From an uncultured Paraglaciecola sp. (GTDB lineage Bacteria > Pseudomonadota > Gammaproteobacteria > Enterobacterales > Alteromonadaceae), in assembly GCF_913058035.1 (NCBI RefSeq), contig NZ_CAJXPA010000029.1:1-34560 (forward strand): DNA of 34,560 bases, given 5' to 3'. A program made the translations under genes and the position numbers. This document shows positions 3,063-15,271 of the stretch, piece after piece (position 1 is the first letter of the stretch; each line of letters opens with the position of its first letter). The notes below the pieces were generated by a model, which saw only the letters and a program-made list of their open reading frames with translations, made no database searches and was not told where the DNA came from.

Positions 3063-3299
3063 GGACAGATTCTCCAGAAATTTAATTATGGCATGCGACA
3101 GGGTTTTGCCCAGACTCCTATACATATATCCAATAAAAACAATAATTTCAAAGCAATACATCAAACACATCTAAATTTAACATTCATTTAACATTCATTT
3201 AACATTATTTCAATTATCCAGTTATTGCGATAAAACGAGCGAATATTGATAAACTAAACATATCGAAAAATTGAAATTACTGATGAAAGATGGCTACTC

Positions 3300-4124
3300 T
3301 TAATGATGACTGGCTAAGGCTTGCAACACTTTAACCGTGTCTGACATATGGGTATAACCTAGACCAATTTCTCTTGAAATAGATAAGTCTGTTATGGGTT
3401 TAAAGTGGATATTGGTATCCTTCACAATAGTGTCAGAAACAGGAATGAAGGCACATCCTAAACCAGCTTTCACAAGGCCTAATGCGTATTCGATAGTCTG
3501 TATTTTTGCTCTAGTGTCTATTCTAACATTTGCAATATTCATTTTTTTCTTCAAATAATCCCAGCCCTCACAGGGGCTTCGTTGCACAAAAGCGACATCT
3601 TGCAGATCCATAATATTAACTCTCTCAGTCAAACCTAACGCATGATCTAACGGAATGGCCAATTGGTAGTCGTCCTGCCACATAGGCACAAATTTTTCAT
3701 TATTTAACCGTAAGTCACGGCTAATAATACGTGCTTGGCATGGTTCGTCCTGTGAAACTAATGTTAGCTCTAATGAATCAACTGAACGCGTGAACCGACC
3801 TAAAAAATCGCTCATTCGCGCCACGCCTAAGCCTTTTATCAACCCCAACCTAAAAGGTTTTTTTGTGGTGTCTGTTCTAAAAACGTCGCGGATAGATGTT
3901 GCTTGTCCCAATAATTGTTTAGCTAAAGGATAAAGCTGCTCACCTGCATGGGTTGCTTGAACTCCCCTAGCATGACGAACGAATAAACGAGTAGATAAAC
4001 TGTGTTCTAATTGTTTCAACGAGGCTGATATAGAAGGTTGAGCCACAAACTTATTTTTTGAAGCCGCACTTAGACTTCCACTCTCGTAGATAGTCACAAA
4101 GTACTCTAACGCACGTAAATCCAA
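3300..4124 (-). CDS. LysR-type transcriptional regulator
   Basis: A 274-residue LysR-family regulator. Residues 1-60 carry the winged helix-turn-helix (DLRALEYFVTIYESGSLSAA, then AQPSISASLKQLE). Residues ~90-265 form the effector-binding domain, with the usual late segment GLVKAGLGCAFIPVS. It is shorter than the ~300-residue norm because the effector domain is compact. It is transcribed away from the fused 2-oxoacid dehydrogenase gene at 4289 with a 164-bp shared intergenic region, the classic arrangement for a LysR protein controlling its divergent neighbour and itself. The likely effector is therefore a 2-oxoacid or branched-chain catabolite, which is inference from position only. Confidence 0.9.
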   Translation of the reverse strand: MDLRALEYFVTIYESGSLSAASKNKFVAQPSISASLKQLEHSLSTRLFVRHARGVQATHAGEQLYPLAKQLLGQATSIRDVFRTDTTKKPFRLGLIKGLGVARMSDFLGRFTRSVDSLELTLVSQDEPCQARIISRDLRLNNEKFVPMWQDDYQLAIPLDHALGLTERVNIMDLQDVAFVQRSPCEGWDYLKKKMNIANVRIDTRAKIQTIEYALGLVKAGLGCAFIPVSDTIVKDTNIHFKPITDLSISREIGLGYTHMSDTVKVLQALASHH

Positions 4125-4146
4125 AATCTATACTCTTCTATTTGAT

Positions 4147-4197
4147 ATAGGTAAAAACTATAGCAAATAAAGGTTATTAATATTATTCCTTTAGCAA
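4147..4197. promoter_or_regulatory. Candidate LysR operator in the divergent intergenic region
   Basis: The shared upstream region contains ATAG-N7-CTAT at 4147-4161, a small dyad compatible with a LysR T-N11-A site. Next to it is AAAGG at 4170-4174, mirrored by CCTTT at 4189-4193. These are suggestive in position, between a LysR gene and its probable target. The symmetry is short and the DNA AT-rich, so this is only a candidate. Confidence 0.3.
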
Positions 4198-4288
4198 AAT
4201 AATGCTTATGATTCGTACACTCTGATCTCAGGCCACACAAAAACTGGCTTATAGGTATTTTTTATTAGCAGATTTAAGGCATAACAGC

Positions 4289-6514
4289 ATGATGCAAGAT
4301 CGTAATATTAAGGTTAAACAACAGATTATCCAGGCGATACAGTCTACTTCTTTACCTATTGTAAATTCTTCATTCACGCCTGCGGAGGTAGGCTTGTCAG
4401 ATACCCAATTGATAGACCTCTTCGAATCACAAGTTATGAGTCGCCACCTAGACTTTCAGTCACGAGTGATGCAAAAACAAGGTCAAAGTTTTTATACCAT
4501 AGGCAGTGCAGGCCATGAAGGTAATGCTGCTTGTGGATTGGCTTTTAGACCTAACGATATGGCTTTTTTACATTACAGAAGTGCTGCATTTGTCATTCAG
4601 AGATCAAAACAAGTACCTGATCAAACTATTTTGTACGATATGTTGTTGAGTTTTGCTGCGTCCTCTGATGATCCTATTTCTGGTGGTAGACACAAGGTAT
4701 TAGGCAGTAAAAGCCTATTTATCCCACCTCAAACCAGCACCATTGCCTCACATTTACCTAAAGCCGTTGGAACTGCCTTCAGCATTAGTCTCTCGCGCAA
4801 AGTAGCAGTAGATAACGTATTAGAAAAAGATGGAGTTGTGATGTGTAATTTTGGTGATGCCTCATCGAATCACTCCACAGCTCAAGGTGCTATTAACGCT
4901 GCTGCTTGGGCTGCGTTTCAATCGGTGCCTATGCCAATCGTATTTATTTGTGAAGATAACGGCATCGGTATCTCTACCGCTACCCCTAAAGGCTGGGTGC
5001 AAGCCAATTTTGAGCATAGAGCAGGGCTGCATTATATTCAGTGTGATGGGTTAGATTTACTCGACACCTATCATAAAACTCAACAAGCCGTAGAAATTGC
5101 TCGCAAACAACGCAAGCCGGTATTTTTACATATGAAAACTATACGTTTACTCGGCCATGCAGGCTCTGATTCAGAGTTTACTTACCGCAGTAATGAATAT
5201 ATTGAAGATACTGAAGCCCATGATCCTTTGCTGTTTAGTGCCGCTTTATTGTTGAAACACAAATGTCTCGATGGCCAACAAATTATCGATTTATATAATA
5301 AAATAGAAGAGTCGGTTAAAGACATCAGTCAACAAGTAATCACTAAACCCAAGTTAACTTGCGCTGAGAAAATCAAACACAGTATTATCCCACCTAAGCT
5401 TGATAAGGTTTATCAACACAAGGTATCTGAAGACAAACGCCATGAATTATTCAGCCATGAAAAACATAATCTAGTAAAAAAACAACACCTCGCAAAATTA
5501 CTTAACTGGACCTTGTTTGATTTAATGGCCGAGCAGCAAAATATTGTGATGTGTGGTGAAGATATTGGTAAAAAAGGCGGTGTATATAACGTCACCAGTA
5601 AATTGGCGGACAAGTTTGGGCCACAAAGGATCATTAATACTTTACTGGATGAACAGTCAATTTTGGGTATGGCAATAGGCTTAGCTCACAATGGTTTTTT
5701 GCCTATGCCGGAAATTCAGTTTTTAGCTTACGTGCACAACGCTGAAGACCAGATAAGAGGTGAGGCAGCCACGTTGTCATTTTTTTCCAATGGACAGTTT
5801 ACTAATCCGATGGTGATAAGAGTGGCTGGTTTAGCTTACCAACGTGGTTTTGGTGGGCATTTTCACAACGACAACTCCTTTGCTGTCTTTCGTGATATAC
5901 CAGGGCTAATCATCGCCTGCCCTTCAAACGGAGCTGATGCAGTTGACATGCTCAGAGAGTCAGTCAGGTTGGCTCAAGAAGAGCAGCGAGTGGTTATTTT
6001 TATTGAGCCTATCGCACTGTATATGAAAAAAGATTTACATCAAGAAGGTGATTTACTTTGGACATTTGATTATATTCACCCCAGTGATGCACAACCAATT
6101 AAAATTGGGCAACTAGGGTGTTTTGGCAAGGGTCGGGATGTGTGTATTGTTAGTTATGGCAACGGTTACTATTTGAGTCGCCAAGCTGAAAAAATGCTCT
6201 ATGAGTTAGATATTCATTGTACCGTGATTGATTTACGTTGGCTTGCACCTCTAGATGAAACGGCCATCATTGCGGCTATTGGCGATGTAAAAAATGTGCT
6301 GATAGTAGATGAATGTCGCCAAACGGGCTCTATTAGTGAAGCCTTAATCACGTTATTGGTTGAACACGATGTTGATTATTCAAGCCGAAAAGTTGAACGG
6401 CTTACCGCTCATGATAGCTTTATCCCGCTTGGCTCAGCGAGTAATGCAGTATTACCTTCTTGCGAGCTTATAGTTGCACAAGTCAAACGCATGGTCGCTA
6501 GAAACCCCCAATAA
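4289..6514 (+). CDS. Single-chain 2-oxoacid dehydrogenase E1 (alpha and beta domains fused)
   Basis: A 741-residue thiamine-diphosphate enzyme that decarboxylates a 2-oxoacid and passes the acyl group to a lipoyl E2. Residues ~35-330 match E1-alpha: the ThDP/Mg motif starts with GDASSNH at 189 and ends with EDN at 222-224. Residues ~330-395 are a charged linker. Residues ~400-741 match E1-beta, with GEDIGKKGGVYNVT at 423, the glutamate of LLDEQSILG near 455, and GGHFHND at ~522. Separate alpha and beta subunits are usual in branched-chain and pyruvate E1 enzymes, so this is a natural fusion. No E2 or E3 gene follows; it must borrow them. Tandem ATG codons start the gene, with AAGG upstream. 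The substrate is probably a branched-chain 2-oxoacid, but that is not shown. Probably controlled by the divergent LysR protein. Confidence 0.9.
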   Translation: MMQDRNIKVKQQIIQAIQSTSLPIVNSSFTPAEVGLSDTQLIDLFESQVMSRHLDFQSRVMQKQGQSFYTIGSAGHEGNAACGLAFRPNDMAFLHYRSAAFVIQRSKQVPDQTILYDMLLSFAASSDDPISGGRHKVLGSKSLFIPPQTSTIASHLPKAVGTAFSISLSRKVAVDNVLEKDGVVMCNFGDASSNHSTAQGAINAAAWAAFQSVPMPIVFICEDNGIGISTATPKGWVQANFEHRAGLHYIQCDGLDLLDTYHKTQQAVEIARKQRKPVFLHMKTIRLLGHAGSDSEFTYRSNEYIEDTEAHDPLLFSAALLLKHKCLDGQQIIDLYNKIEESVKDISQQVITKPKLTCAEKIKHSIIPPKLDKVYQHKVSEDKRHELFSHEKHNLVKKQHLAKLLNWTLFDLMAEQQNIVMCGEDIGKKGGVYNVTSKLADKFGPQRIINTLLDEQSILGMAIGLAHNGFLPMPEIQFLAYVHNAEDQIRGEAATLSFFSNGQFTNPMVIRVAGLAYQRGFGGHFHNDNSFAVFRDIPGLIIACPSNGADAVDMLRESVRLAQEEQRVVIFIEPIALYMKKDLHQEGDLLWTFDYIHPSDAQPIKIGQLGCFGKGRDVCIVSYGNGYYLSRQAEKMLYELDIHCTVIDLRWLAPLDETAIIAAIGDVKNVLIVDECRQTGSISEALITLLVEHDVDYSSRKVERLTAHDSFIPLGSASNAVLPSCELIVAQVKRMVARNPQ

Positions 6515-6638
6515 TCGACTACATTATTAAGATAACTAAAAGTGGTTCGGAGATGGTTAATTGGCGGCTAAAGCTAATTTAAAGTGAACAAACAACAACA
6601 AACCAGAATATTATCTGTTGTCTGCCCATATTTAAATT

Positions 6639-9600
6639 TTACTTAGATCTGTTTGGTCGCAGTGATTTCATATCCCGAATATAACGTCTGAAATATTGCT
6701 TTATGTCTTCTAAGATCAAGTAGTTTAGAGGCACTAAAAACAAAGTAATTAACGTGGCAAACAGAATACCAAACCCTAGACTGATAGCCATAGGGATCAA
6801 AAACTGAGCTTGAGTGGACTTTTCAAACAGCAAAGGCATCAAGCCCGCAAAGGTCGTTAGAGAGGTCAGTAACACCGGTCTGAATCGTCGTCCCCCCGAT
6901 TCAAATACGGCTTGTTTGATTTTCATGCCCTCTTTTCGCTTTCGGTTAGTGTAGTCCACTAATACAAGAGAATCATTCACCACCACACCCGACAACGCTA
7001 ACATGCCCATAAAACTCAGCAAGGTTAAATCTACTCCCATAATCCAGTGGCCGATCACCGCACCTACCAGGCCAAAAGGTATGACTGACATAACAATCAA
7101 GGGTTGCGAGTAAGACTTAAAAGGAATCGCCAGCAATATATAAATCAAAAAGGCAAGTGCAGTGCCACCCAATATCAACCCTTGCTTTGAGTCTTTTTGG
7201 TCTCTGGCTTCTCCCGCCATCTCAAAGCTAGTACCAGGATAACCAACAATCTGTAGCTCCAACCAACTCCGCACTTCATCTTGCACCAGTGTCAGATCGC
7301 CATTTTGTTTATCAAAATCAGCAGTAACTGAAACAGTTCGTTGTCTGTCGACACGCAAAATTGTATTCGGACTTAAACCTGGAAAGACATTCGCAACCTG
7401 CCACAATGAAACTTCTTGATTGGGACCAATACGGATCATCATCTGCTCAAGTGTTTCAATCGATTGACGGGCTTCAAGTGGGTAGCGCACCATCACTCGC
7501 ACTTCTTCTCGACCTCGCTGCACACGTTGCACTTCGAATCCAAATACAGCTTGCCTCACTTGTTGAGCCACTTGACTTAAATCCAAGCCTAATAATCGTG
7601 CTTCTGGTTTGAGTTCAAGTTGCAACTCTTCTTTACCGTCTGACAATGAGTCTTCTATATCCGATACAGCCGCATAATTGGCTAACTGGACTTTTAATCT
7701 GTCAGCTAATACAGCCAATGTGTCCGTATCTCGGCCTTTGAGTTCAATATTAAGTGGTGCACCACCCCAACCACCAATCTCAGCACGATAATTAAGTTGT
7801 TCTGCACCGGCTACTTGACCGACGAGTTGTCGCCATTCTTTGACAATGTCACCCGTCGTTACTGTTGAATTGCGTTTTTCAGGGGGAACCGTATCTATTC
7901 TCACTCTACCCGTCGTTGAGTTGCGTCCGCCACTAATGGAGTAAATGTTACGAATAACCGACTCATTTGTTTCAGGATCAGTATACTTTTCACGTAACGT
8001 TTTAGCATGTTCGGTCATCGCGCTAATAATTTTATCAGTACTCTCAAATGCCGTACCAGCAGGCATAACCAATGTGGCGGTCGCCACTTCGCTTTGGACT
8101 CGCGGAAAAAAAATAAACTTGGTGTTACCGCTGGCAATGCTTCCAATGATCAGGACTAAACAAGCTAACATAGCTGTCCATGTGGCATACCGCCATCGCA
8201 TGGCTTGCGCTAGCATAGGCTGGTAAAAACGCTTAATAAAAACCTCTAATGAACGAGCAATGGCTTGCTGGACTTTAGAAAAGCGAGATGACTTACCAGG
8301 AACACGAGGTTTGATGTGTTTAAGGTGTGCCGGCAGTATTAATTTTGACTCAATCAAAGAAAATAACAATACCGGAATAATGACTAAAGGTATGGCTGCG
8401 TACCAACTGCCGCGGCCGGTCTGAAAAGCTAATGGTAAAAAAGCAGCAGCAGTAGTCAATATGCCAAAAGTAACGGGAATAGCGACTTCTTGAGTACCTT
8501 TAATCGCAGCCTGAAGTGGGTCTTCACCGCGTTCCAAATGCGAGTACACATTCTCACCCGTAACAATGGCGTCGTCGACTACGATACCTAACACTAATAT
8601 GAATGCAAAAAGGCTCATCAAGTTTAGGCTAACGTCAAATAGGGGCATAAATAGAAAAGCCCCCATAAAACTCATAGGTATACCAAGGCAGACCCAAAAA
8701 GCAACTGAAGGCCTTAAAAATAGAGCCAATAATCCAATCACTAGTAGGGCGCCTTGCCATGCACTAGTGCTTAAAGTTTGCAGTCGACCTCTGATTGGCT
8801 CACTACCATCGCGCCAATAATCCATGCTAAGCCCCTGAGGCAGTCGCGTCTGTTGTTCTAATATAAAATCTTTGACAGCTTGAGTGACTTCAATAATGCT
8901 TTCATCACCGGTACGGAAAATTTCAACTTCAACTGCAGACACACCGTTAAAACGGGTACGTAAAGGAGTTTCTTCAAAACCGTCTTTAATAATGGCAATA
9001 TCACTTAGCTTTATCATGGAGCCATCTTGTGTCGTAATAATAGGGATGTCAGCAAATTCACTGGCACGATATGCTTGGCCTCGACTACGAATAAAAATAT
9101 CACCACCCTGCGTCTTGAGGTTTCCTGCCGATACGTCTCGAGAATTTTGACGTATTACATCAGCAACCTGTTCTAGCGTCAGGTCAAATTTGCGCAAGGA
9201 CAACTCTGGGATCTCAATCGAAATTTCAAAAGGCAAAGTATTGCCCACTTCTGCTTGGGATATGGCATCTAAATTAGCGACCTCATCACGAATGTCTTCT
9301 GCTAATCTTCGAAGTGTTATCGCGTCATAATCACCGTAAATTACGATACCAATAGCATCTCTTCGTCGCTGAGGAACTTGGATGAGTAGATTTTCAGCAT
9401 CGACTGGAAAGTTGTTTATACCGTCCACTCTGATTTTTACTTCATCAAGAATTTCGCGGACATCGTAACCTTCCTCAACGTCTATAGTAATTGATGCACT
9501 TCCTTCTCGACTTTGGGATGTGATTTGCCGAATACCCTCAAGGTCTTGAACTGCTTCTTCAACTTTTATAGTAATACCTTCCTCTAATTCCTGAGGCGAA

Positions 9601-9758
9601 GAACCGGATAAAGTCATTGATACTTGCACTTTTCGTTGTTCGAATTCAGGAAAAAGATCAACCGGTATTTGGGTAGATACCACGTACAACCCTGACAACA
9701 TTATGACAACTAAGAGTAAATTCGCTGCTACATCATTTTTTGCAAACCAAGCAATCAT
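6639..9758 (-). CDS. RND-family inner-membrane efflux transporter
   Basis: A 1039-residue resistance-nodulation-division pump (AcrB/HAE class). It has an N-terminal membrane helix (residues ~8-28), a large periplasmic loop, a block of helices around 340-530, a second periplasmic loop and a C-terminal helix block (~850-1010). The proton-relay aspartates are visible in TM4 (GIVVDDAIVTGENV), and the second half has the matching SGVVVNDSLVLVD. The membrane adaptor gene lies 12 bases upstream (9771-11126), so the pair is one operon. No TolC-like outer-membrane gene is present; a shared TolC is expected. Start chosen at 9758 because AGGAGT lies eight bases before it. Substrates cannot be inferred. 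No regulator gene is adjacent. Confidence 0.95.
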   Translation of the reverse strand: MIAWFAKNDVAANLLLVVIMLSGLYVVSTQIPVDLFPEFEQRKVQVSMTLSGSSPQELEEGITIKVEEAVQDLEGIRQITSQSREGSASITIDVEEGYDVREILDEVKIRVDGINNFPVDAENLLIQVPQRRRDAIGIVIYGDYDAITLRRLAEDIRDEVANLDAISQAEVGNTLPFEISIEIPELSLRKFDLTLEQVADVIRQNSRDVSAGNLKTQGGDIFIRSRGQAYRASEFADIPIITTQDGSMIKLSDIAIIKDGFEETPLRTRFNGVSAVEVEIFRTGDESIIEVTQAVKDFILEQQTRLPQGLSMDYWRDGSEPIRGRLQTLSTSAWQGALLVIGLLALFLRPSVAFWVCLGIPMSFMGAFLFMPLFDVSLNLMSLFAFILVLGIVVDDAIVTGENVYSHLERGEDPLQAAIKGTQEVAIPVTFGILTTAAAFLPLAFQTGRGSWYAAIPLVIIPVLLFSLIESKLILPAHLKHIKPRVPGKSSRFSKVQQAIARSLEVFIKRFYQPMLAQAMRWRYATWTAMLACLVLIIGSIASGNTKFIFFPRVQSEVATATLVMPAGTAFESTDKIISAMTEHAKTLREKYTDPETNESVIRNIYSISGGRNSTTGRVRIDTVPPEKRNSTVTTGDIVKEWRQLVGQVAGAEQLNYRAEIGGWGGAPLNIELKGRDTDTLAVLADRLKVQLANYAAVSDIEDSLSDGKEELQLELKPEARLLGLDLSQVAQQVRQAVFGFEVQRVQRGREEVRVMVRYPLEARQSIETLEQMMIRIGPNQEVSLWQVANVFPGLSPNTILRVDRQRTVSVTADFDKQNGDLTLVQDEVRSWLELQIVGYPGTSFEMAGEARDQKDSKQGLILGGTALAFLIYILLAIPFKSYSQPLIVMSVIPFGLVGAVIGHWIMGVDLTLLSFMGMLALSGVVVNDSLVLVDYTNRKRKEGMKIKQAVFESGGRRFRPVLLTSLTTFAGLMPLLFEKSTQAQFLIPMAISLGFGILFATLITLFLVPLNYLILEDIKQYFRRYIRDMKSLRPNRSK

Positions 9759-9770
9759 TATTAGTTACTC

Positions 9771-11126
9771 CTAATTCACGGACACTGAAGCACGTTTCGC
9801 ATTGCCTTCAGACGATTTTTCTTGCTGATTTTGTGCCTCTACAAATTCACTTTTATTACCCGGTGGCTTGTCAAGCCCCTCACTGAGTGACTTAACTTTA
9901 GTTCCTTGAGGAAGATTGGCGGTAGGGGTAAGAATTAGACGATCAGTTGCACGTAAACGGCTTAAATTAGATTCACCAATAGTCGTTTGTGATGAAAAAG
10001 ACCCGTCATCCGCTAACGCAGAGACAACGACTGATTTAGCATCTGTCCAAAGTGGTGTCACTTTACGCTTTTTTAATAAGCCCTCATCAGCCACGCTTAC
10101 CACAAAATTTTGCGAAACGGCTCTTCTGGGGATGACGTAAACATCTTTTAATAAACGGCCCTCTATTTTAGCGCTTAGAAACTGACCTATACGGATTGCT
10201 GGACGTTGCTCATTTCGAATAAAGGGTTCATTAATTTGAGCCACCACATACAACATTCGAGTTGCCGGATCGAATACCCCTTCGCTTCTCACAATTTCAC
10301 CTTGCCATTGATAGGTGCGCGACCCAAATTCACCGCTTAATAGAACTTTTGGACGCGCTTGTATTGTGCCATTATCCTCGGGGATCATTAAGTGTTGCAG
10401 ATCTGCAATTTTCACGGGTAAACGGACTTCAACAACGTCAGTACCATAAATATCAGCTATCGTTTGAGTGGGGTTCACTACTTGACCAATGTCAACCATC
10501 TGTTGAAGCACTTTACCATCAAAAGGTGCTCTAATTTGCGTACGCTCGAGGTCTAGCCTAGCGTTTGTGAGGCGAGCTTTAGACGCTTGCAAAGCCGCTT
10601 TTGCTGCCGCGACTTGTGGTTTTCGTAATGCCAGAAGCTGTGCTGCATCATTATTAGGACGTTCGTTCCACTCTTGAGCCGCTAAGTCCGCCTGTGCGAC
10701 TTCTTGTAAATAACGCACTTCTGCATCTGCGACTACCGAGGCAGCAACATCAACGGCGACTCGAAAATTTCGATCATCTAAGTGAACCAACACGTCACCT
10801 TGAGAAAACGCCCCACCCGAACGTATATTGGGAGACACCTTTATAACCTTTCCACTCACCTCTGCTGCCAATTGTGTTCTGGTCAGCGACTCAGCAGTTC
10901 CGTATGAATCGATCCAGGCGGCAAAATCTTGTTGCTGTAAGGACGCAATCTCAACCACCACGTTGGGTGCCTCACCGCCACCCCATTTTCGCGTTTGAGG
11001 TTTACTGCTAAACAATGAAGAAAGCACACCTACTGTTATGGCAATGATGATGATACTGACAATAATGTGTGCAACCCAATGCACTTTCTTGTTGTAAACA
11101 TTATTGGAATCGTCCTGCTGATCCAT
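9771..11126 (-). CDS. RND periplasmic adaptor (membrane fusion protein, HlyD/AcrA type)
   Basis: A 451-residue adaptor linking the RND pump to an outer-membrane channel. A cytoplasmic N-terminus is followed by one membrane anchor (residues ~16-38, with IIVSIIIIAITVGVLSSLF), so it is anchored by a helix, not by lipidation. The lipoyl-like half-motifs are visible (AEVSGKVIKVSPN near 85 and TQIRAPFDGKVLQQ near 195), with a coiled-coil hairpin rich in alanine between them (~115-190). A beta-barrel and a membrane-proximal domain follow, then a hydrophilic, glutamine/serine-rich tail that is probably disordered. The start ATG has GGAG six bases upstream. It is first in a two-gene operon with the pump. 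Confidence 0.93.
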   Translation of the reverse strand: MDQQDDSNNVYNKKVHWVAHIIVSIIIIAITVGVLSSLFSSKPQTRKWGGGEAPNVVVEIASLQQQDFAAWIDSYGTAESLTRTQLAAEVSGKVIKVSPNIRSGGAFSQGDVLVHLDDRNFRVAVDVAASVVADAEVRYLQEVAQADLAAQEWNERPNNDAAQLLALRKPQVAAAKAALQASKARLTNARLDLERTQIRAPFDGKVLQQMVDIGQVVNPTQTIADIYGTDVVEVRLPVKIADLQHLMIPEDNGTIQARPKVLLSGEFGSRTYQWQGEIVRSEGVFDPATRMLYVVAQINEPFIRNEQRPAIRIGQFLSAKIEGRLLKDVYVIPRRAVSQNFVVSVADEGLLKKRKVTPLWTDAKSVVVSALADDGSFSSQTTIGESNLSRLRATDRLILTPTANLPQGTKVKSLSEGLDKPPGNKSEFVEAQNQQEKSSEGNAKRASVSVN

Positions 11127-11451: not shown

Positions 11452-11480
11452 TTGACTTTTAAATTAAACATCCGCAAAAT
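11452..11480 (+). promoter_or_regulatory. Candidate sigma-70 promoter of the cobalamin-uptake operon
   Basis: TTGACT at 11452-11457 matches five of six -35 bases. CAAAAT at 11475-11480, 17 bases later, matches four of six -10 bases. Transcription would start near 11487, just before the riboswitch, which is where a promoter is needed. The -10 match is modest. Confidence 0.4.
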
Positions 11481-11514
11481 TGTTCCATAAATTGCTCAGG
11501 TGCTCTTTTCAACC

Positions 11515-11680
11515 AAAATTTATGGTGTGAAAAACAAGAGATAATCGGGAAGTTAGTGCAACACACAAGTGTTTAAGTTTAAGTCTAACGCTGCCCCCGC
11601 AACGGTGATGCTGAATATCAGTTAAGCCCGGAGACCGGCCTGTCAATATGTTACAAATTATAGTGCGGTGGGCGCTAGGA
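11515..11680 (+). ncRNA. Cobalamin (adenosylcobalamin/B12) riboswitch aptamer
   Basis: The conserved core is clear: GCTGCCCCCGCAACGGTGA at 11590-11608, and the B12-box-like AGCCCGGAGACCGGCCTGTC at 11624-11643. Upstream, ATAATCGGGAAGTTAGTGCA is the usual entry to the four-way junction. Downstream, TAGTGC (11661-11666) pairs with GCGCTA (11672-11677) around the loop GGTGG; this fits the P13 hairpin whose loop kisses the C-rich L5 loop to lock the ligand-bound state. Cobalamin binding normally represses the downstream gene. The aptamer lies 85 bases before a BtuB-like receptor gene, exactly the family's usual target. The outer limits are approximate. Confidence 0.94.
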
Positions 11681-11742
11681 ATTGTTCTGAAACCTCGATA
11701 CTTAAAATTATGTTTATTTAGGTAGAGTTTCGTCGTTCCTAT

Positions 11743-11762
11743 CGTCCTCGCTCCAGAGGCCG
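11743..11762 (+). promoter_or_regulatory. Hairpin that hides the ribosome binding site (expression platform)
   Basis: CCTC at 11746-11749 can pair with GAGG at 11756-11759 around a six-base loop, extended by CG (11743-11744) with CG (11761-11762) across one mismatch. GAGG is the only good ribosome binding site for the ATG at 11765, five bases away. Together with the upstream cobalamin aptamer and the lack of a terminator with a T-run, this suggests control of translation initiation. Confidence 0.6.
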
Positions 11763-11764
11763 AC

Positions 11765-13795
11765 ATGTTTCAAGCAAAATACTCTACTTTATTATTCATG
11801 TGCTTTTTATTCACGCGCTTTTTTTACCTTACATGTGTAAATGCTAGCGAGCACCCAGAGAAAACGGTTGAGGTGCTGACTGTTTATGACAATACCGCTC
11901 TTTTTTCAAGTCATTACCAGATATTAACCCGTGAAGACTTCATTAACACCTCACAAACCCTGTCTGACATATTACAGGCTGTTAATGGCTTGCAGATCCG
12001 CCAAATTGGTGGGCTAGGTAATCCTGTTTCAGTTTCTATTCGTGGTTCAAGTAGTAAACAAGTTCAACTATTTATTGACGGTCAACTGGTCAACGATAGT
12101 CAATTTGGTGGTTTTGATCTAAACCAAATACCCACGGAACAAATTCAGAGTATTGAAATCAGTAAGAATCAAGCGATAGGAGTAGGCTCTACGCCCATTG
12201 GAGGAGTGATTAGAATTAATACCTACAACCCTAACAAAGACAAGTTAAAACTCAGCCTATCTCTTGGCTCATTTAATCATAAACAGCTCAACCTGCTGTA
12301 TAACAAAGCGTTTCAGTCAAATAACTTATCTGTAGGTGGCAGTTACCTTAAAACTGATAATGATTATGAGTACCCAGTGCCTCAAAGTTTTACCAGCAGT
12401 AATGAGTCCAGTATAGAACCTTTGGGTAACAATCAGTTTGAGAAAAAAAATGTCTATTTGAATAATCAGTTGTCATTCGGCGCTCATAAGATCCGTATCA
12501 CGGCACAATATAATGAACAAGAAAAAGCCCTTCCAAACTACCAAAATAATACGCCAGAAAATGCATCGAGCCTCTCATCAGACACTTGGCGTTTGAGTTA
12601 TCGTCACAATATATACACTAACCTTAAATGGCTGAACAACGTCGAATTTGAAGCTTATCAAGAAGATAAAGCAGAGCAATATTTAGATGTTTTGGCTGAC
12701 GTTAAACGCTTAGATGCCAACTATGACACCACAAAAACTCATGCAGACCTGATATCCTTTTTTGTTTTTGATAACAAATACGGTGACACAGCTTTTAGCC
12801 CTTTTATAGAGTTAAACAAACAACATTTTGATTCCCTTAGTTTTGATAATAATGGTCAAATAAACTGCAATGGGATCAGTAGCTGCGATGTCATAGCAAA
12901 ACAAACACAGTGGTTATTTGGGTCTAGGTTTGAGTGGCAGCAAAATAATGGGCCACTATCCGCCTATTCATTACTGACTCAGTTAAACGAAAAGAATCAA
13001 AATATCTCGGTGAATCAGCCTGATGCAAAGACATTTAAAAGCGAACACGATCATCAAACTCAAGAATTTGGGGTGGTGTATCGGGGCTCTCAGATAAAAG
13101 CCGAATTGATCGCCAGCAACGGCATCCGCACACCCACTTTGTTTGAACTTTTTGGTGATAGAGGCTTATTTAAGGGTAGTGAAAAGTTATTACCTGAACA
13201 AGCTAAAACGCTGAGTGTAGGCCTTGCATATAATAGTCAAGTAGCGCAGATGAGCTACTCATTTAATGCCGCGGTTTATCATCAACAATCAGATAATGCC
13301 ATAGTGGCTATTTTTAATAGCAGTGGTGTGGGTGCCTATAAAAATGTGAGTAACGCCACTCTAAATGGGCTGGAGCTAGAAACAAAATTAACGATATCTC
13401 CAGCCCTTAGCCTAAATCTACAAGCTAACATTATCGATAGCCAAACCAACTCTGTAATAAAATCGTTCAATAATAAAAAATTACCCGGTATTTATCACCA
13501 ACAATACAGTGTGTCGGTTAACTACCAATTTAACCCACAGTGGAAAATTCACATACGTAATACGCTAGACAAAGACTTGTACTTTAATCGCGCCAATATT
13601 TTCGAGTCAACGAATGGACAAGCAGGCAAACCTGCGCAACGTCGACTAACAGATATTCAACTCGGCTACACAAGTGGAATTTACGGTCTCAATCTAAATT
13701 TGAATAACCTCTTTAGTCAGCAATATCAAGATTTAGCTAACCGTCCAGCTCAAGGGCGAAGTATCCAATTTAAAATCTCAATACAAGGCATATAA
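11765..13795 (+). CDS. btuB: TonB-dependent outer-membrane receptor, BtuB-like
   Basis: A 676-residue outer-membrane receptor for active cobalamin uptake. It has a signal peptide (residues 1-27, hydrophobic run then VNAS), a TonB-box-like TVEVLTVY at 34-41, and a plug domain (~45-155) with SVSIRGSSSKQVQLFIDG and IGGVIRINT. The barrel extends to the C-terminus, including the receptor signature GIRTPTLFELFGDRG and an aromatic/hydrophobic last strand (QFKISIQGI). The length fits BtuB (~600-700). Substrate assignment rests on the cobalamin riboswitch directly upstream, as well as on the overall BtuB-like build. Energy comes from TonB-ExbB-ExbD encoded elsewhere. The next gene starts on the base after the stop codon, so the two are co-translated. 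No periplasmic BtuF or BtuCD genes are here. Confidence 0.93.
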   Translation: MFQAKYSTLLFMCFLFTRFFYLTCVNASEHPEKTVEVLTVYDNTALFSSHYQILTREDFINTSQTLSDILQAVNGLQIRQIGGLGNPVSVSIRGSSSKQVQLFIDGQLVNDSQFGGFDLNQIPTEQIQSIEISKNQAIGVGSTPIGGVIRINTYNPNKDKLKLSLSLGSFNHKQLNLLYNKAFQSNNLSVGGSYLKTDNDYEYPVPQSFTSSNESSIEPLGNNQFEKKNVYLNNQLSFGAHKIRITAQYNEQEKALPNYQNNTPENASSLSSDTWRLSYRHNIYTNLKWLNNVEFEAYQEDKAEQYLDVLADVKRLDANYDTTKTHADLISFFVFDNKYGDTAFSPFIELNKQHFDSLSFDNNGQINCNGISSCDVIAKQTQWLFGSRFEWQQNNGPLSAYSLLTQLNEKNQNISVNQPDAKTFKSEHDHQTQEFGVVYRGSQIKAELIASNGIRTPTLFELFGDRGLFKGSEKLLPEQAKTLSVGLAYNSQVAQMSYSFNAAVYHQQSDNAIVAIFNSSGVGAYKNVSNATLNGLELETKLTISPALSLNLQANIIDSQTNSVIKSFNNKKLPGIYHQQYSVSVNYQFNPQWKIHIRNTLDKDLYFNRANIFESTNGQAGKPAQRRLTDIQLGYTSGIYGLNLNLNNLFSQQYQDLANRPAQGRSIQFKISIQGI

Positions 13796-15271
13796 ATGTT
13801 AACACTATTCAAAAAAAACGCGCTTACAGTAGCGCTAATAGGTACCTTATCAATTTTAGGGGGGTGTAGCAGTGATAGTAATGACGCCCCGAAACTATCT
13901 GGTAGTAGGTTAGTCACCGTAGCTGAAAATACCACAGTGGTGAGTCAATACACGGCAACTGACGACGAAAATAGGTTAACCTTCGCCATCACTGGCGCTG
14001 ACCAGCAACTTTTTGTTGTAAACAATACAGGTGCAGTGGAATTTATCAGCGCACCTGATTTTGAGAATGGTGATACTGGTCCTTATAACATAACAGTCAC
14101 TGTATCAGACGCTCAAGGTTTGACCGACTCTATAGATGTGACTGTGAACGTGGGAGATGTATTAGATACCCCCTCAATGGCGTTGGTTCAAACGATAGCC
14201 GCTGACTTTTCAAGTTCACAAGTTGCTTATTTAGACTATGCAGCACAGACGGTTGATGATGGTTTTTATGCTAAGACTCAATCTGACTACACCATCAGTG
14301 TGTATCTAAACAATGTGTATCATATTGGTCGCTTTTTTATTGATACCATCAGTAAATATATTGTGCTGAATGCGAGTACTGAAATCTGGTCTTATTCAAC
14401 TCAAGACGACTTAGACTCAACCACCAGAAATCCTTATACATTAGTGTCTCTCAGTGCAGAAAAAGCGTATTTGATACGTTATGGTTCAGATAAAATCTGG
14501 ATTGTTAACCCACAAGCTACAGATTTTGATAGTTTCAAAATTGGTGAAATTAACTTAGCAAGCTATGTGCCTGACAACAATACAGCTGGTACACCCAGTC
14601 CATCTGCAGCGGTAGTCAATGATGGTAAGTTATTTGTTGTTATGCAGCGCTTAGATGATAATTTTGGCAGCTCTAACGCAGTTTATTTAGCCGTATTTGA
14701 TACAGTTACCGACAGCGAAATTGAAACCAATACAGATACTAGTGATAGCGTAATGGGTATTCCTTTGCTTGGTTTAAATCCTTTAGAACATAGTGTTAGA
14801 GCATTTAAGGATAAGGTGTACATTACGTCTCGCAACTCATTCTCAGCTATTAGCGTAGACCAAAGTTTGATTGAGGAAGTGGATGCGAATGACTTCAGTT
14901 TAAGTACGGTATTAAGTGCAGCAGACATCAACGACAATACCACAAAGTACATTCAATCTTCGGCCATCGTCTCTGCACAACAAGGATATTTTTATGCAAA
15001 CGAAACTTTTTTTGCCCCTTATCGTGAAGAGTCAACATTGTATCAATTCAACCCAAGCACAGGTGAAATCAGTAATGAAACCGTGCTTAATATAGAGACT
15101 AATAGCATCGGTTTTATCGACGTCGATGCTGCAGGTTTCTTATGGGTAAGTGTGCTAGAAAATGCAGCACCAGGGGTCGAAATTATTGATACTGAAACCA
15201 ACTTACCGTTAATCAATCGTTTAGAAACACAATTAAATCCTGGTGTTATTCGTTTTATCGAAGACTTTTAA
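13796..15271 (+). CDS. Outer-membrane lipoprotein, cadherin-like domain plus predicted beta-propeller; candidate cobalamin-capture partner
   Basis: A 491-residue lipoprotein: hydrophobic signal, lipobox LGGC with lipidated C24 and Ser at +2 (outer-membrane sorting). Residues ~32-120 resemble a cadherin-like repeat (VAENTTVV, ATDDEN, APDFENG, VTVSDAQG), the acidic motifs being typical calcium ligands. Residues ~125-491 consist of repeated beta-rich blocks (KAYLIRYGSDKIWIVN, DGKLFVVMQRLDDNFG, GFLWVSVLENAAPGVEIIDT) as in YncE-like propellers. It begins immediately after the btuB-like stop codon (AAGG within the receptor's last codons serves as ribosome binding site) and shares the riboswitch. 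Known family parallel: BtuG, a surface propeller lipoprotein binding cobalamin on BtuB in Bacteroides. That this protein does the same is inference. No enzyme motif is visible. Confidence 0.82.
   Translation: MLTLFKKNALTVALIGTLSILGGCSSDSNDAPKLSGSRLVTVAENTTVVSQYTATDDENRLTFAITGADQQLFVVNNTGAVEFISAPDFENGDTGPYNITVTVSDAQGLTDSIDVTVNVGDVLDTPSMALVQTIAADFSSSQVAYLDYAAQTVDDGFYAKTQSDYTISVYLNNVYHIGRFFIDTISKYIVLNASTEIWSYSTQDDLDSTTRNPYTLVSLSAEKAYLIRYGSDKIWIVNPQATDFDSFKIGEINLASYVPDNNTAGTPSPSAAVVNDGKLFVVMQRLDDNFGSSNAVYLAVFDTVTDSEIETNTDTSDSVMGIPLLGLNPLEHSVRAFKDKVYITSRNSFSAISVDQSLIEEVDANDFSLSTVLSAADINDNTTKYIQSSAIVSAQQGYFYANETFFAPYREESTLYQFNPSTGEISNETVLNIETNSIGFIDVDAAGFLWVSVLENAAPGVEIIDTETNLPLINRLETQLNPGVIRFIEDF

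Follow-up and report, generated by a model that had tools for sequence, protein, structure and literature searches.

The question raised by this locus is whether a cobalamin capture system resembling the BtuB-BtuG pair of Bacteroides also operates in Gammaproteobacteria. The window, a stretch of 34,560 nucleotides from an uncultured Paraglaciecola sp. (assembly GCF_913058035.1, contig NZ_CAJXPA010000029.1, positions 1 to 34,560), carries on its + strand and in this order a cobalamin riboswitch, a BtuB-like TonB-dependent receptor and a lipoprotein (Table 1), and a first-pass annotation made from the sequence alone had proposed that the lipoprotein is an independent or distant analogue of BtuG. 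From the evidence set out below we consider it probable that the pair is an outer-membrane unit for cobalamin capture and uptake, in which a propeller lid acts on the receptor, and the lipoprotein is best read as a member of a distinct family in Gammaproteobacteria whose way of working resembles that of BtuG.

The riboswitch and the receptor were both borne out. The aptamer, the sole match at the gathering threshold in the window, scored 67.3 bits with RF00174 (gathering score 31.5). The receptor has a Plug domain (Pfam, E = 1.2e-14) and its top NCBIfam models are two BtuB equivalogs (E = 4.6e-24 and 2.2e-23), at scores far below their full-length cut-offs (82.7 of 599.7 bits for TIGR01779, 84.9 of 836 bits for PRK10641); it ranks best among the 54 TIGR01779 matches in its own genome. 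When a profile of the receptor family was searched against the PDB, the top two solved relatives were BtuB1 (8blw, 6.8e-47) and XusA (9gbc, 3.3e-44), followed by E. coli BtuB (1.5e-41) and, lower, BtuB3 (1e-38) and BtuB2 (2e-36).

As had been read from the sequence, the lipoprotein begins directly after the receptor TAA (13793-13795), with zero intergenic bases, and bears a lipobox (LGGC, residues 21-24); AAGG lies inside the receptor gene's end just 5' of the lipoprotein ATG, and the lipidation cysteine is kept in all rows of a 10-row alignment. Residues 125-491 form a region of 367 residues for which none of the Pfam families scored over its cut-off. The AlphaFold model of the whole lipoprotein (10-row alignment) was of moderate quality (predicted local distance difference test, pLDDT, 77.3; predicted template modelling score, pTM, 0.70), and that of the propeller only (29-row alignment) was confident (Table 1). 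In Foldseek searches covering 350,542 PDB chains, Bacteroides BtuG1, BtuG2 and BtuG3 filled ranks 1-15 with the propeller model (E = 5.8e-15 to 1.5e-11; template modelling (TM) score on target 0.75-0.79) and ranks 1-16 with the whole-protein model. The first fold other than BtuG in the propeller search, at rank 16, was a putative 6-phosphogluconolactonase (4qrj, E = 4.4e-10), about 30 times behind the last BtuG; XusB (2.3e-8), YncE (1.5e-7, rank 47) and methylamine dehydrogenase were among further matches with TM on target of 0.60-0.67 (0.60-0.64 for XusB). The propeller proposed by the first-pass annotation is thereby confirmed, at the level of the predicted model, as a BtuG-like β-propeller, with BtuG1/2/3 as the nearest solved structures. 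As a Foldseek search is blind to gene context, this fold match is independent of the argument from the riboswitch.

Conservation of the gene pair provides that second line of argument. Homologs were sought in the genus, in the order (394 genomes), in the class (369 genomes including its own) and in the phylum (398 genomes); for the last three, mostly the four best first-look candidates per genome were scored, and the counts are therefore lower bounds. Matches in the class sample came from 22 genomes, namely its own, 20 others (E = 1.4e-48 or better) and a weak one, G766, so that strong relatives occur in at least 20 of the 368 other genomes, spread over 16 genera and 11 families. The family is patchy: within the genus it was found in five of the 21 other genomes, in G012 as a fragment at a contig end. 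Thirty-nine genomes of the order sample matched, 28 of which were dropped as their matches did not extend past profile position 147 or so (the signal and immunoglobulin-like (Ig-like) region), and G197 and G202 held fragments. The phylum sample yielded, besides its own genome, two marginal repeat matches, a result that says little on spread outside the class.

From these searches 41 loci were compiled, of which 35 could be assessed. A BtuB-like receptor lies directly upstream of the lipoprotein in all 35, and a cobalamin riboswitch over the Rfam threshold lies just before the receptor in 34, well beyond Alteromonadales. The pair thus co-occurs under the riboswitch more often than by chance, although these are not 35 independent events because several loci come from close relatives (for example the window, L001, L002, L057 and L058). 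The exception, L047, is the last part of a one-strand run of btuD-, btuC-, cobO- and btuF-like genes, btuB and the lipoprotein, headed by a riboswitch with a sub-threshold score of 29.8 bits; its CobO was over cut-off, and the BtuF, BtuC and BtuD models scored under theirs. The Cognaticolwellia pair is located between cbiB/cobD and cobQ/cobU/cobS/cobT. A search of 60 relatives found close homologs of the receptor (E below 1e-60) in six genomes, each of which also has the lipoprotein; the lipoprotein search added four genomes whose matches were divergent, partial or confined to a domain. Between one and five cobalamin riboswitch matches were counted in each of 17 genomes that hold the family or its outliers.

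Six of the 41 loci were excluded: L056, which has riboswitch and receptor but whose lipoprotein is truncated at a contig end; L081 and L096, whose contigs begin within the receptor or shortly ahead of it; L100 (the second half of G716's gene, the first half being L095); the remnant L055; and the weak outlier L101. L095 was kept though the end of its lipoprotein is cut, and L006/L014 (the G012 fragment) stand outside the count. L055 (G202:C1:3714000-3728000, 6771-7271) has a cobalamin riboswitch and, after it, an open reading frame (ORF) of 121 residues whose match is confined to the final portion of the lipoprotein profile; as the upstream region yielded no receptor gene, the locus seems to be decaying in this genome. 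L101 (G766:C71:109000-120500, 3161-10284) has a weaker gammaproteobacterial homolog after an MxcH-like siderophore receptor (330.6 bits, below the cut-off of 925) and before DUF3450, ExbB and TonB genes, with a receptor but no riboswitch, and may be a XusAB-like pair for siderophores in a gammaproteobacterium.

Between lipid anchor and propeller the family is variable. In the window lipoprotein, residues 29-118 match Big_9 at 32.2 bits (cut-off 23.6), and the Cadherin model reached 21.1 bits, under its cut-off of 28.8; the cadherin-like domain of the first-pass annotation is read here as Big_9/cadherin-like. The annotation had further suggested that this module may act as a stalk. Of the relatives measured, 27 in all, each with its cysteine in register, 22 have only 14-30 residues between cysteine and propeller, three (L003, L047 and L058) have Ig/cadherin-like tethers of 103-108 residues, L048 has 54 residues with PVD repeats and L093 has 138; the window lipoprotein belongs to the long-tether kind. 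An essential cadherin-like stalk was accordingly rejected, and what is left of the idea is an optional module that lengthens the tether in part of the family. A Calx-beta match was found in one of 29 family members among the matches listed, and the long insert of L093 is likely its place. It could be argued from such Ig/cadherin-like and Calx-beta modules that the lipoprotein is an adhesin or signalling protein carried as a passenger in an unrelated operon. However, the same pair recurs at every assessable locus over receptor identities of roughly 21-81%, and the propeller is retained across relatives while the N-terminal modules vary, making this explanation extremely improbable.

How the family relates to the characterized propeller lipoproteins is less straightforward. 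By local hhalign, the 29-sequence family matched three BtuGs at E = 1.9e-8 over 342 columns, compared with 0.012 for BamB of its own genome, 0.26-0.56 for reversed (0.56 for reversed BtuG) and 0.25, 0.51 and 0.59 for column-shuffled controls, and BtuG matched XusB-like proteins at 2.1e-6. Because the hhalign matches beat the controls, we take the family, BtuG and XusB-like proteins to be related to one another. The propeller is acidic in all 29 members (isoelectric point 4.05-4.68), as in three BtuGs (4.50-4.63) and unlike two XusB-like proteins (5.06 and 6.96). Across the 29 rows of the family, D164, N212, W450 and P482 do not vary, R285, N328 and P329 are shared by 28, and R228 by 27.

Several observations nevertheless weigh against a BtuG-like role. 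The family is closer to XusB-like proteins (hhalign 5e-20, and 5.1e-17 with a single XusB-like sequence) than to BtuG, for which a single sequence gave 6.3e-4 and a probability of 28%. In a PDB profile search with the 29-row family, nine BtuG sequences were matched at E = 0.022-0.077, all at KAYL...WIVNP, behind four sensor-kinase propellers (matching the repeat-like C-terminal end) and SodC; with the N-terminal part alone, BtuG (0.095-0.68) came behind other propellers. Identity between the family and BtuG is about 13-16%, and DUF5074, the BtuG Pfam family, did not match the window propeller; it appeared at E up to 1 in two of 29 members among the matches listed (best 26.6 bits, cut-off 27.2), compared with 73.6 bits for the BtuG of the B. 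finegoldii operon, a protein that matches a PDB entry over its entire length. No residue-level match to the cobalamin pocket of BtuG could be obtained from a 13%-identical alignment. A mapping of BtuG2 Trp194, Trp272 and Tyr316, which are present at those positions in B. finegoldii BtuG, was dropped since such an alignment is too weak for pocket residues. Finally, the weaker homolog of G766 lies in a siderophore-like setting, and the sequence-nearest characterized protein binds siderophores, BtXusB being reported to bind ferric enterobactin (FeEnt) off its central pocket (PMC13142918).

These points raise the alternative that the ligand is another small molecule, such as a metal complex or siderophore, and that cobalamin merely controls expression. 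XusB-like siderophore lipoproteins are among the sequence neighbors of the family, the G766 homolog adjoins an MxcH-like siderophore receptor, and the window receptor as a single PDB query matched XusA first (8.6e-22), ahead of BtuB1 (2.2e-10) and E. coli BtuB (4.3e-10). Even so, we regard this alternative as quite improbable, given the cobalamin riboswitch at 34 of 35 loci, the cobalamin import and salvage genes that are the neighbors where these were looked at, a fold nearer BtuG than XusB and a BtuG-like acidity. DUF4374, the XusB family, gave no match for the 29 members among the matches listed (25 of 31 families), and where XusB would have a siderophore operon with a PepSY protein the context here is that of cobalamin. 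A tblastn search of plasmid records with the window propeller found two Bacteroidota proteins (L125 and L126, E = 1e-6 and 2e-6), each adjoining a TonB receptor, with no cobalamin riboswitch at either locus; the one tested matches XusB (8.7e-8) and the other is 57% identical to it. In an unrooted tree, whose long branches were flagged by the program, the family stood apart from BtuG and from the XusB-like proteins with G766. The family thus appears to form its own branch, with predicted structure and sequence disagreeing as to whether BtuG or XusB is nearer. Of the "distant analogue of BtuG" in the first-pass annotation, the fold and a detectable homology hold; being a separate family that lacks DUF5074 at cut-off and is nearer in sequence to XusB-like proteins, it is better put as a separate group within a wider assemblage of propeller lipoproteins linked to TonB receptors, XusB among them.

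Outer-membrane lipoproteins of Gammaproteobacteria usually face the periplasm, and a search for SlipAM, a family of surface-lipoprotein exporters, identified no exporter for this one, its single marginal match lying on another contig; both belong with the points against a surface lid. That match (25.7 bits, cut-off 22, in a 312-residue ORF) was unconvincing, and a Slam-type exporter was rejected. A lipoprotein on the inner leaflet of the outer membrane might take cobalamin from the receptor and store it or hand it to BtuF, an arrangement that would suit a protein without a clear outward signal; the signal by which Bacteroidota direct BtuG to the outside is not known in Gammaproteobacteria, and YncE of E. 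coli, whose fold is related, resides in the periplasm. Yet the nearest folds are surface lids and not YncE, most relatives measured have a short tether, as does BtuG2 (Cys32, with crystallized chains starting at residue 47), and BtuB1 and XusA, the top solved relatives of the receptor profile, both bear lids on the outside (PMC10404256; PMC13142918, which describes 9GBC as XusAB). We therefore hold a periplasm-facing lipoprotein to be unlikely. The residues after the window cysteine, SSDSND, include no clear counterpart of the MKWD reported for BtuG2 (PMC6143338). Acidic residues after the cysteine averaged 1.5 in 28 members and 0.79 in 14 controls (p = 0.052), a comparison that carries no weight either way because seven of the 14 controls were family members or kin. 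The BtuG2 linker is reported to run along the barrel as a hinge (PMC10404256); because a long tether misfits such a hinge, the long-tether members may swing or reach further.

By analogy with BtuBG we infer cobamide binding, a lid on the receptor, an outward-facing lipoprotein and hand-over of the vitamin. When cobalamin is scarce, the riboswitch would let receptor and lipoprotein be made together; the lipidated cysteine would anchor the lipoprotein, whose propeller would bind cobamides, probably in a central pocket as in BtuG, and, sitting on the receptor as a lid, pass the vitamin to it. BtuF- and BtuCD-like proteins encoded in a second riboswitch cluster would carry cobalamin onward, and in Paraglaciecola and Colwellia relatives the Ig/cadherin-like domain lengthens the tether. 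That second riboswitch heads btuD- and btuC-like genes with, further on, cobO and a btuF-like gene (CobO over cut-off, the others being best-fitting models below cut-off), and of the two cobalamin riboswitches in the genome only that of the window leads to a receptor. A MetH frame is present, and no CobI/CbiL, the single ring-synthesis marker looked at, was over cut-off in the genome, which fits a B12 scavenger. The frame of this B12-dependent methionine synthase (G000:C22:31011-34604) has one internal TAG in this assembly, which reflects an error in sequencing or else a gene that is broken. In the second cluster (L113, G000:C96, 2750-4161), 1.4 kb between the btuC-like gene and cobO is without an ORF of at least 100 residues and may contain a decayed gene.

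Table 1. Features of the cobalamin riboswitch, receptor and lipoprotein locus in the Paraglaciecola window.
Feature	Position	Strand	Evidence
Cobalamin riboswitch aptamer (RF00174)	11481..11657	+	cmscan match to the entire model (1-189), 67.3 bits, E 1e-14
BtuB-like TonB-dependent receptor, 676 aa	11765..13795	+	Plug domain, BtuB equivalog models, PDB profile matches
Propeller lipoprotein, 491 aa, putative BtuG-like partner	13796..15271	+	ORF, homologs, context
Signal peptide and lipobox LGGC, Cys24 at 13865-13867	13796..13867	+	sequence; Cys invariant in 10-row alignment
Optional Big_9/cadherin-like domain separating the lipid anchor from the propeller, residues 29-118	13880..14149	+	Pfam Big_9 32.2 bits
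Predicted β-propeller, residues 125-491	14168..15268	+	AlphaFold2 pLDDT 92.3, pTM 0.92; Foldseek ranks 1-15 BtuG
Strand motif NPxxLxxxxxxKAYLxRYGSxKxWIVNPxA, residues 212-241, BtuG-like SPRYIHFISDEKAYITQIWDYRIFIVNP	14429..14518	+	weak BtuG profile matches; conservation

The pair is flanked upstream by divergent genes for an AcrB-like pump and its HlyD-type partner, and downstream by genes for an aldehyde dehydrogenase, a GMC oxidoreductase and a product that weakly matches BCCT transporters. Elsewhere in the window (4289-6514), one ORF combines an E1 dehydrogenase component with two transketolase-type domains, seemingly a 2-oxoacid dehydrogenase whose alpha and beta subunits are fused.

BtuG, which has been employed as a reagent (PMC11287211), was reported in PMC6143338 to be exclusive to Bacteroidetes, on the basis of BlastP against 313 gut genomes. 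Among the matches listed in our literature search, no title or abstract opening described a gammaproteobacterial BtuG-type pair, with subscription papers and preprints outside its scope and absence from print not established by it. If true, a BtuG-like partner in many Gammaproteobacteria changes the picture of B12 competition outside the gut and makes the gene pair a way to find cobalamin scavengers; it also raises the question of how a large lipoprotein would reach the gammaproteobacterial surface without the Bacteroidota signal. Taken further, we tentatively suggest, judging it possible but somewhat short of probable, that Gammaproteobacteria have their own widespread lidded cobalamin receptors, the variant of Paraglaciecola and Colwellia being stalked, and that their use of cobalamin arose separately from that of BtuG, out of TonB-receptor lid proteins resembling XusB. 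Tight cobalamin capture arising twice on one propeller scaffold becomes testable in this way, and lid-assisted uptake of small molecules would, if the origin was independent, be a general outer-membrane strategy and not one of Bacteroidota only.

Set against known systems, the window pair shares with that of E. coli a BtuB-like receptor feeding a BtuF-BtuCD route, and E. coli btuB likewise lies under a riboswitch; it differs in that the window receptor is far below the BtuB equivalog cut-offs and that, to our knowledge, E. coli BtuB has no propeller partner. YncE has a propeller in common with the window lipoprotein but is among the more distant fold matches, and we know of no pairing of it with a cobalamin receptor. 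With Bacteroides XusAB (PMC13142918) the pair shares a propeller lipoprotein beside a TonB-dependent receptor, and the nearest Bacteroidota sequence relatives found (L125 and L126) match XusB; those two loci, however, are without a cobalamin riboswitch, and the structural match to XusB is weaker than that to BtuG. From Bacteroides BtuG (PMC6143338, PMC10404256) the lipoprotein differs in its low sequence identity, in the lack of DUF5074 at cut-off and of a clear Bacteroidota export signal, in the long Ig-like tether of some members, in its gammaproteobacterial host and in gene order, the receptor coming first here, as in Persicobacter, whereas the B. finegoldii operon is arranged btuG-btuB. 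On plasmid pPP3 of Persicobacter psychrovividus (Bacteroidota; L129, 3893-8104), a riboswitch and a hypothetical gene precede a TonB receptor and then, after zero bases, a DUF5074 BtuG, the receptor-first order and the zero gap being as in the window. What the window lipoprotein and BtuG have in common is a propeller lipoprotein (the fold being predicted for that of the window) encoded beside btuB under a cobalamin riboswitch, a short tether in most relatives measured, an acidic propeller and a similar KAY...IVNP strand.

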